Position numbers and translations under genes: made by a program | The notes under the pieces: generated by a model | Database searches by the model: none | What the model was told of the DNA's origin: nothing | What the model saw: only the letters and a program-made list of their open reading frames with translations | Assembly: GCA_020073605.1 (NCBI GenBank) | Contig: JAIQEW010000007.1 | Span: 1-64,000, forward strand | Direction of reading: 5' to 3' | DNA from: Terriglobia bacterium | GTDB taxonomy: Bacteria; Acidobacteriota; Terriglobia; Acidiferrales; UBA7541 | Length of the DNA stretch: 64,000 nucleotides | Shown here: positions 1 through 51,503 of the stretch, one piece after another | How the letters are laid out: the number at the start of each line of letters is the position of its first letter | How positions within the stretch are numbered: position 1 is the first letter of the stretch

Positions 1-185
1 ACACCCTCTAATCGATACTTCGGATCGTACTTTTCAGAAAAGACTGGTCTTCCGGGCTGCACTCAATTTGACTTAATCAGGACGGGGTTTTCTTTGAATT
101 GACGCCCGCGAGCGGACTTAGGCTCTTAAACTCAGCCCAATGGACTTCGAACTAGTGTTGCATCGACCCATTGAGACCACCGCGC

Positions 186-47203: not shown

Positions 47204-48130
47204 TTACGAGATGAGGGCCGTGGGATTCGTGACGGCCATGCGGCGCACGTCGGCCGACGAAAAGCCCGCGTCGAGCATCTTCTGCGCGAACATGGCGAAA
47301 CCTTCCGTCACGGGAGGATTGATCGTCTGCCCCAGGTCCGTCGAGAGAACCACGCGCTCCGGCCCCACTTTGCGGACGCTATCGAAATAAGCGTCCCACG
47401 GGGCCTTGTTCGTGTACATCGTGGTGAAGCAGTGCTCGATCACCGCTCCCATGTTGGCCAATTCCACCTGTTCGCTCGCCGTGAGACTCTGCGACGGGAA
47501 CTCCGCGTGGGTGACGAGGACTCGCTTGAGGCCCATCTCCTTGCTGCCCTTCACCAGCGCGTGGATTTCCTTCTTGCCCAGGTGGCCGGTGGCAAGGATC
47601 ATGTCGTGCTTGCCGATCAATTCCAGGCAGCGGCGCGCGGGTTCGGTCAGCTTTCCGTCGCTAGCGATCACCGTCAACGGCGCGGGCGAGATGCCTTGCG
47701 CCGAAAGCTCGCGCTGAATTTTCGCCCAGAAGGGAAGCTTGTCCGTCGGGCCGTCCGTGCGGCCGGCCGTTTCGTTCGCCGCGTCCACCGTGGGCATCCA
47801 CACGATCTTGTTGCCGGAGCGTCCCGCGATTTCGAGCGCCACGGGATTGAGGCCGCCCACGCTGTGATTCAGCGTGATCGCGCCAAACGCCGTGATTCCC
47901 GGGCAGGCCTTCGTGACCACCTTGGCCCGCTCGTACGTGGGAACGTAGTGCGACTTCAAAACGAATCCCTTGAGCTTGCGCGATAGAAATTCCTTGGCAA
48001 GGTCGAGATCGTCGATGCGCCGCGCGATCACATCCGGCGCGACGTGGACCTGCAAGTCGTAGCCGCCCTCGATCGCCTGCCATGCGGCGTCGGTCAATCG
48101 GATCGGAGCGGCAGCGGTTTCAGCGGACAT
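47204..48130 (-). CDS. DUF6282 family protein (amidohydrolase-like)
   Basis: This 308-residue cytosolic protein has an amidohydrolase-like barrel with VHVAPD near residue 29, LKSHYVPTYERA near 56, TLNHSVGG near 88, and a late STDLGQTINPP near 268 with a possible metal-binding Asp. This is the DUF6282 family, which is uncharacterised. The residue pattern (H, K, H, D) suggests a metal-dependent hydrolase, but the substrate is unknown. The gene lies downstream of DUF2203 and moaA on the same strand; the gap to DUF2203 is about 60 bp. It is convergent with the serine hydrolase. Confidence 0.82.
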   Translation of the reverse strand: MSAETAAAPIRLTDAAWQAIEGGYDLQVHVAPDVIARRIDDLDLAKEFLSRKLKGFVLKSHYVPTYERAKVVTKACPGITAFGAITLNHSVGGLNPVALEIAGRSGNKIVWMPTVDAANETAGRTDGPTDKLPFWAKIQRELSAQGISPAPLTVIASDGKLTEPARRCLELIGKHDMILATGHLGKKEIHALVKGSKEMGLKRVLVTHAEFPSQSLTASEQVELANMGAVIEHCFTTMYTNKAPWDAYFDSVRKVGPERVVLSTDLGQTINPPVTEGFAMFAQKMLDAGFSSADVRRMAVTNPTALIS

Positions 48131-48190: not shown

Positions 48191-48637
48191 TTACTGAATG
48201 GGATTCCGATAGTCGGCGTCGCGCGGATCGATCGGTTTGCGGCCTGAAAAACCTTCGTCCTGACGGTGGTAGAAGCGGATGCGGTCCTCGCCGAGCTTCC
48301 AGCAGAGGTAGACGGCCTCGCCATCGATGCGCGCGGGAAAATCGAGCAGGCCGACTTCGAGGTCTTTGACGATGCAGCCGGTCGACTGGATTCGCTCGAG
48401 GGCCGCCTGGATGGCTTCCGCGAGGCGATTGCGCTCGATGCGCTGCCGAGCCACCTTCTCGTAGGAGACGATCAGGCCGCCGGAGCGCTGGATGCGCTCG
48501 GCAAGCGCGCCGAGCTGCTCTTCCAGCTCCGCCAGCTTCCGGCGCGATTCGATCGTCTCGATCAGGATCGGCTCGATCTGCGTGCGGAGGCGCTCCGCCT
48601 CGCGCAGGGAGAAAAGTTTGGATTCTTCATCCGCCAT
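48191..48637 (-). CDS. DUF2203 family protein
   Basis: This 148-residue protein begins LFSLREAERLRTQIEPIL, has a helical coiled-coil region (about 20-85), and ends in a beta part with CIVKDLEVGLLDFPARIDG and VYLCWKLGE followed by the FYHRQDEGFSGRKP tail. This is the DUF2203 pattern; the role is not known. It is about 90 bp downstream of moaA, with repeat copy E between, so it may or may not share the transcript. Confidence 0.85.
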   Translation of the reverse strand: MADEESKLFSLREAERLRTQIEPILIETIESRRKLAELEEQLGALAERIQRSGGLIVSYEKVARQRIERNRLAEAIQAALERIQSTGCIVKDLEVGLLDFPARIDGEAVYLCWKLGEDRIRFYHRQDEGFSGRKPIDPRDADYRNPIQ

Positions 48638-48675: not shown

Positions 48676-48729
48676 AGATCCCTCGGCTCCCGTTGGTCGC
48701 TCGGGATGACGACCCTCGTCGGGTCGTCA
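48676..48729 (+). repeat. Two-hairpin intergenic repeat, copy E
   Basis: Nearly identical to copy A: ATCCC-TC...TC-GGGAT, then GACGACCC/GGGTCGTC with loop TCGTC. Its last bases form the TGA stop of moaA on the minus strand. Confidence 0.85.
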
Positions 48730-49707
48730 ACCGCCGATTGAAACCATCGTGCGCGAAGGCGGCGCAAAGCCCGGCTCGTTGATGCGGTGCCCCTTCTCTT
48801 TTTGCGCGACGATCGCGAGAATTTCGTCGCCGATTTCCCGGTCGCTCGCCCCGCCCCGCAGGAGGAATCGCAAATTGTGATCCTCCTTGCTGAAAAGGCA
48901 CGTCCGGAGTTTTCCATCGGCCGTGAGCCGGATGCGCGAGCAGTGTCCGCAGAAGGGCTGGGAAACGGGAGAGATCAAGCCGATTTCGCCCCGGCCGTCG
49001 GCGAAGCGGAATTTGCGCGCCGTTTCGCTGCGCTCGTGGACCACGGGCACCAGCGGCCAGTGCGCCGAAATGCGCGCATGCACCTCCGCGCCGGTGACCA
49101 CCATGTCGCGCGTCCAGGAGCGGTCCGCGTCGAGCGGCATGAACTCGATGAAGCGCATGATCAGGTTGCGGTCGCGCGCGAAGGCGGCAAACGCCTCAAC
49201 CTCGTCGTCGTTGATGCCGCGCACGAGCACGGCGTTCACTTTCACCGGGCGCAGCCGCGAAGCCTGTGCCGCGTCGATTCCGGCGATCACTTGATCGAAC
49301 ATCTTGGTGCGCGTAATGCGCTCGAATCTTTCGCGGTCGAGCGAATCGAGGCTGATGTTGATCCGGTCCATGCCCGCGGCGACCAGGCGGTCGCAGTGTT
49401 CGGCGAGCATCTGGCCGTTCGTGGTCATGGAAAGGTCTTGCACGCCGAGCGCCTTCAGCCGCGAGATGAAATCCTCGACGCCCGGGCGAACCATCGGCTC
49501 GCCGCCGGTGACGCGCACCTTGCGAATGCCCATCGCGACCAAAATTCGGACCAGCCGCTCGTACTCCTCCCACGCGAGCAGATCGCCCGACGGCATGTGC
49601 GTTTCCGGGTTGGCCGAACGGCAATAGACGCAGCGGAAGTTGCAGCGGTCCGTTACCGAAACGCGCAGGTCGGTGATCTGCCGGCCGAATTTGTCAATGA
49701 GCGGCAT
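48727..49707 (-). CDS. moaA: GTP 3',8-cyclase, molybdenum cofactor synthesis
   Basis: This 326-residue radical SAM enzyme turns GTP into the 3',8-cyclic form, the first step to molybdopterin. It has the SAM cluster motif CNFRCVYC (Cys 22, 26, 29), the VTGGEPMVRPG segment, a C-terminal cluster set in FCGHCSRIRLTADGKLRTC, and the conserved C-terminal Gly-Gly ending SIGG. The start at 49707 fits the family; a TTG at 49743 would begin inside the terminator upstream. No strong ribosome site is seen. A structured leader and terminator lie just before the gene. No other Moco gene is in the window. Confidence 0.96.
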   Translation of the reverse strand: MPLIDKFGRQITDLRVSVTDRCNFRCVYCRSANPETHMPSGDLLAWEEYERLVRILVAMGIRKVRVTGGEPMVRPGVEDFISRLKALGVQDLSMTTNGQMLAEHCDRLVAAGMDRINISLDSLDRERFERITRTKMFDQVIAGIDAAQASRLRPVKVNAVLVRGINDDEVEAFAAFARDRNLIMRFIEFMPLDADRSWTRDMVVTGAEVHARISAHWPLVPVVHERSETARKFRFADGRGEIGLISPVSQPFCGHCSRIRLTADGKLRTCLFSKEDHNLRFLLRGGASDREIGDEILAIVAQKEKGHRINEPGFAPPSRTMVSIGG

Positions 49708-49726: not shown

Positions 49727-49764
49727 AAAAAGCAAAAGCCCAAATCCGTGTTTGGACTTGGGCT
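49727..49764 (-). terminator. Terminator 20 nt before the moaA start
   Basis: In minus-strand RNA AGCCCAAGUCC pairs with GGAUUUGGGCU (49764-49754 with 49747-49737; one G-U pair) around a six-base loop, followed by TTTTGCTTTTT. It has the form of an intrinsic terminator and, by position, must be read through for moaA to be expressed from any promoter upstream. Confidence 0.85.
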
Positions 49765-49929
49765 ACACGCCCGGCATGACTTGTGTCAGCCGAGCATCCC
49801 CTTTCCAATCACGGGAGGCCCGGGCGTTTCCACCCGAACCCTCGGTCCCGCCCTGCAAAAACTTGGTACGGGACGTCGCCTCCAAGCCTTCGGATTTCTC
49901 TCCTTTAGGCTTGGGAGGTCGGAGAACTC
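49765..49929 (-). promoter_or_regulatory. Structured leader RNA before moaA (riboswitch candidate)
   Basis: The minus-strand RNA folds into successive stems: CCTCC-CAAGCCT/AGGCTTGGAGG, GTCCCG/CGGGAC, a GAGG...CCTC stem topped by CGGGTG-GAAA-CGCCCG (GNRA tetraloop), and GCTCGGC-TGAC/GTCA-GCCGGGC. Then comes the terminator. With its position this suggests control of moaA by premature termination. A molybdenum cofactor (Moco) type riboswitch is the obvious candidate by context, but I could not check the consensus. A free small RNA is the alternative. Confidence 0.6.
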
Positions 49930-49935
49930 AAGGGG

Positions 49936-49965
49936 ATTCTACCTTTTGCGCGCGGAAGGAAGCAA
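49936..49965 (-). promoter_or_regulatory. Promoter candidate of the moaA leader
   Basis: On the minus strand TTGCTT (49965-49960) and TAGAAT (49941-49936) are 18 bp apart, placing the transcript start near 49929, at the beginning of the structured leader. The rest of the gap from 50029 contains no gene. Confidence 0.55.
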
Positions 49966-50029: not shown

Positions 50030-50908
50030 TTAGGACGAGCTGCCGGCGGAGCGGCTGATGTTGCGGATTTCCTTGCGGTAATCGGGCGCGGAGATTTCGA
50101 CCGTGCGGCACATTTCGTAGAGGCGCGAGCGGATGCGCTTGCCGACGCGGTCGGTAAGCGAGTCTTCGATGGTGGGCGCGCGCATTCCCGCAACGCGCGC
50201 GGGCGGCAGGGACGTGGCATTCGCCGCCACGTCGGAATCGAGGAAGTTCGTGGTCAGCAGCGTGACGCGCTTCTCGTTGTAGCGCGTGTTCAGGATGTAG
50301 CCAACGGTCTCGAGCGCCCATAGCGACGGCTTGCTCGACCCAAGATCGTCGAGCACCAGGATTTCGGCCTTGAGCACGGGCTCGAGGACGCCCATTTCGG
50401 TGGCCTGGCTTTCCGCGTTGTAGCTGTCTTGAATTTCCTTCAGCAGCTCGCGGTAGTCGTAGAAAAGCCCGCTGTGCCCGCGAAGGACGATTTCTTTCAG
50501 CGCCGCGACGGCCAGATGCGTCTTCCCCACGCCGCACGGGCCAATCAGCAGCAGGCCGTGTTCGTTGCCGACCGGAAATTCCGAGGCGAAGCGCTCGACG
50601 ATCAATTTCGCTTGCGTGAGGCTTCGATTCCAGGCATTGAGCTGCGCGCGCGGGACGTTTTCGATTTCGTTGTCCGTCTCGTAGTTCTCGAAATCGCAGT
50701 GGCGATAGCGCTCCGGCACGCGGGCTTTCGCGAGCACGCGTTCGGTGCGGTCGCCCACCGTGCAATCGCACGGAATCGCCCACACCATTTTCGGCTCGCC
50801 CGCCGCGGAGCCGGCGTTATCGGCGGCAAGCGCCTGCGCGCCTTCGGTGGTGCGCTCGACAACTTTCCAGCCGCTGCCCTGGCAAATGGGACAATCCGCT
50901 CGCGCCAT
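50030..50908 (-). CDS. DnaC/DnaI-like AAA+ ATPase with zinc-ribbon start
   Basis: This 292-residue ATPase has Walker A GPCGVGKTHLAV near 130, Walker B LVLDDLGSS near 195, and a following sensor TTNFLD, as in helicase loaders DnaC and DnaI and in IstB. The first 55 residues hold CPICQGSGW and a later CDC, a likely zinc site. A helicase loader role fits because no transposase is present to pair with an IstB. The start at 50908 is chosen since the longer frame upstream runs through intergenic repeats. It lies between hspR and the moaA leader on the minus strand. Confidence 0.85.
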   Translation of the reverse strand: MARADCPICQGSGWKVVERTTEGAQALAADNAGSAAGEPKMVWAIPCDCTVGDRTERVLAKARVPERYRHCDFENYETDNEIENVPRAQLNAWNRSLTQAKLIVERFASEFPVGNEHGLLLIGPCGVGKTHLAVAALKEIVLRGHSGLFYDYRELLKEIQDSYNAESQATEMGVLEPVLKAEILVLDDLGSSKPSLWALETVGYILNTRYNEKRVTLLTTNFLDSDVAANATSLPPARVAGMRAPTIEDSLTDRVGKRIRSRLYEMCRTVEISAPDYRKEIRNISRSAGSSS

Positions 50909-50983
50909 GAAGTGAGCATAAGCGGGCCGCGCGACGAGCGCAAGCAGACGGGTGCTGTGCAAATTGGGAGGGCTGTGGAATTC

Positions 50984-51044
50984 GATGATCCGATCAGGAT
51001 CGTCGTCCCGAGCGAGTTTACCGGAGCGAACGAGCCGAGAGACT
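50984..51044 (-). repeat. Two-hairpin intergenic repeat, copy G (inverted)
   Basis: On the minus strand this reads CTCTCGGCTCG...CTCGGGACGACGATCC-TGATC-GGATCATC, matching the family with a few changes. It faces copy F head to head with about ten bases between them. It is the only copy in this orientation. Confidence 0.75.
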
Positions 51045-51054
51045 TCTGGAAGAG

Positions 51055-51107
51055 AGATCCCTCGGCCGCGTTGCGTCCTCGGGATGACTATCCTGGTCGG
51101 ATAGTCA
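51055..51107 (+). repeat. Two-hairpin intergenic repeat, copy F
   Basis: ATCCC-TC...TC-GGGAT is followed by GACTATCC/GGATAGTC. Both arms have changed together relative to copies A and E. The end forms the TGA stop of hspR. Confidence 0.85.
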
Positions 51108-51503
51108 CTTCTCCACGCGGAAGGCGTGGCGGGGAATCGCGCGGACGATGGCGTTGCGCGTCTTGCGCTCATGGGCGGCGATGAAATCGTGCGCGATTTC
51201 GCTGCGCACAAACTTGATGAACGCTTCCATCTGCGTCTGCATCTCGCCCATCTTGTCGCGCATGTTGAGGATGATTTCGATCCCGGCGAGATTGACGCCC
51301 AGCTCGCGCGTCAAATTTAGGATCACTTCCAGGCGCTCGAGGTCGGAGTCGGTGTAAAGCCGCGTGTTGCCCTGCGAACGCGAGGGCTTCAGAAGCCCCA
51401 CGCGCTCGTAAAGGCGCAGGGTCTGCGGGTGAAGTTGATAGAGTTCGGCGACGGCGCTGATCATGTAGCCGGCTTTCGCTTTTTTCCTGGGCCGCGTCGC
51501 CAT
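51105..51503 (-). CDS. hspR: HspR-type heat-shock repressor (MerR family)
   Basis: This 132-residue regulator has an N-terminal winged helix of the MerR type (about 12-80, with AELYQLHPQTLRLYERVGLL and GNTRLYTDSDLERLE) and a short C-terminal helix, without an effector-binding cysteine site. In actinobacteria HspR represses dnaK and clpB operons by binding the HAIR repeat, and needs DnaK as co-repressor. GGGAGACGACG precedes its ATG. It lies 20 bp after dnaJ, the common dnaK-dnaJ-hspR order, and matching operators lie upstream of dnaK and hsp20. Confidence 0.93.
   Translation of the reverse strand: MATRPRKKAKAGYMISAVAELYQLHPQTLRLYERVGLLKPSRSQGNTRLYTDSDLERLEVILNLTRELGVNLAGIEIILNMRDKMGEMQTQMEAFIKFVRSEIAHDFIAAHERKTRNAIVRAIPRHAFRVEK

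Follow-up and report, generated by a model that had tools for sequence, protein, structure and literature searches.

The closest described counterpart of the leader analysed here is the molybdenum cofactor (Moco) RNA of Escherichia coli moaABCDE, for which Moco-dependent repression was demonstrated by reporter; the riboswitch class, its gene association and its terminator-type members were already described in 2008 (Regulski et al., 2008; PMC2408646). Termination by this riboswitch class was later reported for E. coli too, in a 2025 RNA-seq study (PMC12121620). For terminator-type Moco RNAs, such as those of Syntrophomonas wolfei, no antiterminator pairing is described in the available portion of Regulski et al. 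(2008; PMC2408646), and in the open literature, with most subscription papers outside our coverage, no paper was found that mentions both Moco RNA and an antiterminator.

The window considered here, a 64,000-nucleotide stretch of DNA, comes from an uncultivated soil Acidobacteriota close to Candidatus Acidiferrales and carries a leader of the same P3-bearing aptamer family as the E. coli RNA, upstream of the same controlled gene. P1 was proposed to hide the ribosome-binding site in E. coli (PMC2408646), whereas in the present leader the aptamer is followed by an intrinsic terminator, as in S. wolfei, whose tandem copies, unlike this leader, lack P3; an OFF switch, shown by reporter for the E. 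coli RNA, is predicted for the present leader. With a probability of about 0.86, the element is a P3-form Moco riboswitch (RF01055) with a transcription-termination platform, exerting feedback control on moaA. The class itself being known, what is new is a proposed, comparatively supported antiterminator switch.

Gene setting and related leaders

The controlled gene was identified as moaA by TIGR02666 (379 bits against a cut-off of 284), and its nearest relatives by protein lie in Acidobacteriota metagenome genomes, Candidatus Acidiferrales among these. Towards moaA on the minus strand, a promoter is followed by some 165 nt of structured leader, an intrinsic terminator and the gene itself (Table 1). 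The initial annotation had described this layout accurately, including the promoter candidate, the stems, one of them with a GAAA tetraloop, and the 11-bp terminator with its T tract. It had also recognised that no second promoter fits after the terminator, which ends only about 20 nt upstream of the moaA ATG (49707–49705). Beyond moaA, the minus strand encodes DUF2203 and DUF6282 proteins of unknown function (48191–48637 and 47204–48130), and the first gene of this pair may be included in the moaA transcript.

Table 1. Features of the moaA leader, given in window coordinates.
Feature	Coordinates	Strand	Basis
Promoter: -35 TTGCTT (49965-49960), 18-nt spacer, -10 TAGAAT (49941-49936)	49936..49965	-	position conserved in relatives
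Moco RNA aptamer, RF01055, full-length (P1, P2, P3, P4 with GAAA loop, UUGGAAAGG core strand)	49781..49936	-	Rfam match; covariation
GAAA tetraloop of P4 (GNRA)	49827..49830	-	sequence; Rfam alignment; alignment A1
Proposed antiterminator 5' strand GUGAUUGGAAAGGGG, including aptamer P5 and P1 3' strand	49798..49812	-	folding; partner-swap tests; covariation
Spacer hairpin between aptamer and terminator, capping the proposed antiterminator	49767..49797	-	folding of 38 leaders
Proposed antiterminator 3' strand CCCAAGUCCAAACAC, i.e. terminator 5' arm and its loop	49748..49762	-	folding; partner-swap tests; covariation
Intrinsic terminator: 11-pair stem (49764-49737) and T tract (49736-49727)	49727..49764	-	sequence; covariation
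moaA, GTP 3',8-cyclase, controlled gene	48727..49707	-	TIGR02666; Mob_synth_C and Radical_SAM

RF01055 RNAs were found in 43 of 101 genomes (this genome and 100 relatives), and of 30 loci retrieved, 28 have a moaA match next to the leader, the downstream side of the locus being short in the other two (L016 and L021). The relatives' loci, 14 further stretches from the same genomes and, from a second collection, the closest moaA loci gave 49 distinct leaders, in most of which an intrinsic terminator separates the aptamer from moaA. In L018, an aptamer without terminator lies directly at the moaA start, and in the near relative L032 no RF01055 match was found, a plain AAAGGAG ribosome-binding site preceding moaA. 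Two leaders from genomes of the same family (L007 and L008) have an aptamer with a P4 arm unlike the others and no terminator that could be found; their platform is presumably translational or of another kind. Inserts at the P5 position, between CCUCCC and UUGGAAAGG, were seen in L031, L034, L117, L120 and L122, several of them hairpin-like; they are not part of the Rfam consensus, and the core is retained.

Aptamer, promoter and terminator

Scanning the full window against every Rfam family returned a single family above its cut-off, RF01055 (Molybdenum/Tungsten riboswitch aptamer), which matched the leader completely (model positions 1–135), scoring 65.4 bits (cut-off 36; E 1.8e-13). This match supports the first guess of the initial annotation, a termination-type riboswitch sensing Moco, and rules out the new riboswitch class that it had envisaged otherwise: the leader belongs to the established Moco riboswitch family, a membership shown by computation. 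It is the only RF01055 copy in the 3.66-Mb genome. An S15 leader match on the opposite strand (13.9 bits, cut-off 39.5) was rejected as chance.

The Rfam alignment locates the junction core CUCCGA, AGGG, CCUCCC and UUGGAAAGG, all in invariant columns of alignment A1, which comprises 17 leaders. The P3 stem is present (GUCCCGU...GCAGGGCGGGAC, 49874–49845), and both sides of this helix vary at all five pairs counted in A1. In the tetraloop receptor of the P2 bulge, the 5' half CCUAA is present and the 3' half is degenerate, reading GAAGG instead of UAUGG; relatives such as L025 retain CCUAAC/UAUGG. Covariation among homologous moaA leaders, which had been put forward as a check, was found in both aptamer and terminator stems: in A1, 13 pairs of P1–P4 changed on both sides, a level that no shuffle out of 500 reached and that slid controls fell far short of. 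The leader also folds better than its dinucleotide shuffles (z -6.5, 0/200 as good), the whole-leader structure of -115.8 kcal/mol taking in some promoter DNA expected outside the transcript; with the transcript expected to begin close to the first P1 strand, pairings that involve DNA further upstream can be disregarded.

The promoter, which a simple sigma-70 scan missed because its -35 element matches at only three of six bases, is established computationally by its conservation, the pattern TTGnnn-16..19-TAnnnT keeping a nearly constant spacing to the aptamer in 36 of 48 leaders, compared with 3% of shuffles. The start is therefore expected near 49929, around the first P1 strand. Computation likewise establishes the terminator, whose stem has 19 cells changed on both sides in A1, more than in any of 500 shuffles. 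The idea that the arm is conserved as part of a terminator motif repeated across the genome was rejected, the pattern being found once in the genome. The spacer hairpin averages -16 kcal/mol over 38 leaders (mean z -3.2) and is conserved in shape, not in sequence, as expected of a cap joining two antiterminator halves.

Proposed antiterminator and alternatives

Comparative evidence supports the antiterminator. Transcripts truncated immediately upstream of the terminator 3' arm adopted the same fold in 11 of 11 leaders folded, in which UUGGA and its surroundings, followed by GGG or GGAG, pair around the spacer hairpin with the CCC part of the terminator arm, UCC and the terminator loop; in this window, GUGAUUGGA...GGGG is paired with CCC...UCCAAACAC. 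In tests designed after these folds, the duplex between aptamer strand and terminator loop averaged -12.6 kcal/mol for true partners against -9.9 for swapped ones in 38 leaders (z -7.3, 0/20,000 permutations), and the pair count in a fixed register was likewise unmatched by swapping (0/20,000). As such permutations do not fully remove shared ancestry, the more careful figures are those from swaps within subgroups, which were assigned manually on the basis of genus labels and sequence: 28 of 20,000 in g1, 0 in g5 and 5 in the remainder.

On A1, four antiterminator pairs changed on both sides, and the covariation score, higher than that of all slid versions, was reached in 4 of 500 shuffles. In L010 and L050, the GGAG of P1 is met by a terminator-arm CUC replacing CCC. 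An initial swap test of the core pairing, confined to 11 nearly invariant bases, gave no signal because these bases hardly vary; the core strand is invariant as part of the aptamer, so that only its flanks can covary, and the signal arises only from the flanking bases and the terminator loop. This loop tracks the aptamer of its own genome, although terminator formation requires no such complementarity. In L012, L013, L006, L043 and L050 the antiterminator persists in the full-length energy minimum, which is not always aptamer plus terminator because the energy model knows no ligand. The pairing is weak in some leaders (L114, L112, L031).

From sequence and comparison, we infer that Moco would be the ligand, that its binding would switch moaA off and that switching would take place during transcription, the RNA itself beginning near the first P1 strand. 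At low Moco, nothing would keep the aptamer fold in place; its 3' strand GUGAUUGGAAAGGGG would then pair with CCCAAGUCCAAACAC around the spacer hairpin, allowing the polymerase to reach moaA. With Moco bound, UUGGAAAGG would be locked in the aptamer core and P1, leaving the terminator 5' arm free for its 3' arm, and transcription would stop about 20 nt before moaA. Because UUGGAAAGG is common to the ligand-binding fold and the antiterminator, Moco binding should free the terminator. For the genome itself this would amount to ordinary feedback control of cofactor synthesis. The odds are about even that, in Acidiferrales-like Acidobacteriota, UUGGAAAGG, from the ligand pocket, pairs around a variable spacer hairpin with the arm and loop of the terminator, in what may be the first termination switch of the class resolved by covariation.

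A switch acting through P4 instead of P1, with the P4 5' arm GGGUUCGGGU pairing with the terminator 5' arm GCCCAAGUCC, is very unlikely, even though this pairing reaches 10 of 10 pairs in some leaders and is often more stable than the core pairing. True partners averaged 8.21 pairs and swapped ones 8.30 (P 0.96), the P4 and core swap tests having been run sequentially on the same leaders. Moreover, L034, L117 and L038 combine a different P4 arm with a similar terminator arm, P4 is a stable hairpin completed before the terminator, and every truncated-transcript fold chose the core pairing. The element might instead belong to a separate small RNA or to the tail of the upstream gene (50030–51211, same strand), which stops about 65 nt ahead of the promoter, with moaA transcribed from elsewhere. 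The conserved promoter and complete aptamer lying between that gene and moaA, and the short gap between terminator and moaA, make this extremely improbable; the leader also stays with moaA in genomes where no upstream-gene match was found nearby. A protein-controlled attenuator would be compatible with the sequence, although nothing points to one.

Ligand of the aptamer

Moco is unstable outside proteins, which makes the direct study of Moco riboswitches hard; the roughly 40 natural leaders in which the switch can be read provide constructs with termination as a possible readout. In the P3-form riboswitch proposed here, the ligand is likely Moco, judging from gene content and aptamer form: the genome has moaC and five MoCoBD_1 (molybdenum hydroxylase family) matches. 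Since the Rfam family covers both cofactors, the RNA could in principle sense the tungsten cofactor, or a precursor, instead of Moco. This is highly unlikely given the P3 stem, which Regulski et al. (2008; PMC2408646) link to the Moco form, the P3-less form being linked to the tungsten cofactor. The hydroxylase matches also argue against it, as does the result that no gene for AOR (aldehyde ferredoxin oxidoreductase), only one tungsten marker, was found in the genome.

Among the related leaders, four Moco RNAs located before moaA lack P3 by sequence (L004, L018, L024 and L048, from genomes G091, G067, G061 and G101, respectively). No gene for AOR, as one tungsten marker, was found in these four genomes, and three of them (G061, G067 and G091) have 3 to 6 molybdenum hydroxylase matches; the P3-less leaders of these three do not fit a strict rule tying P3 to Moco.
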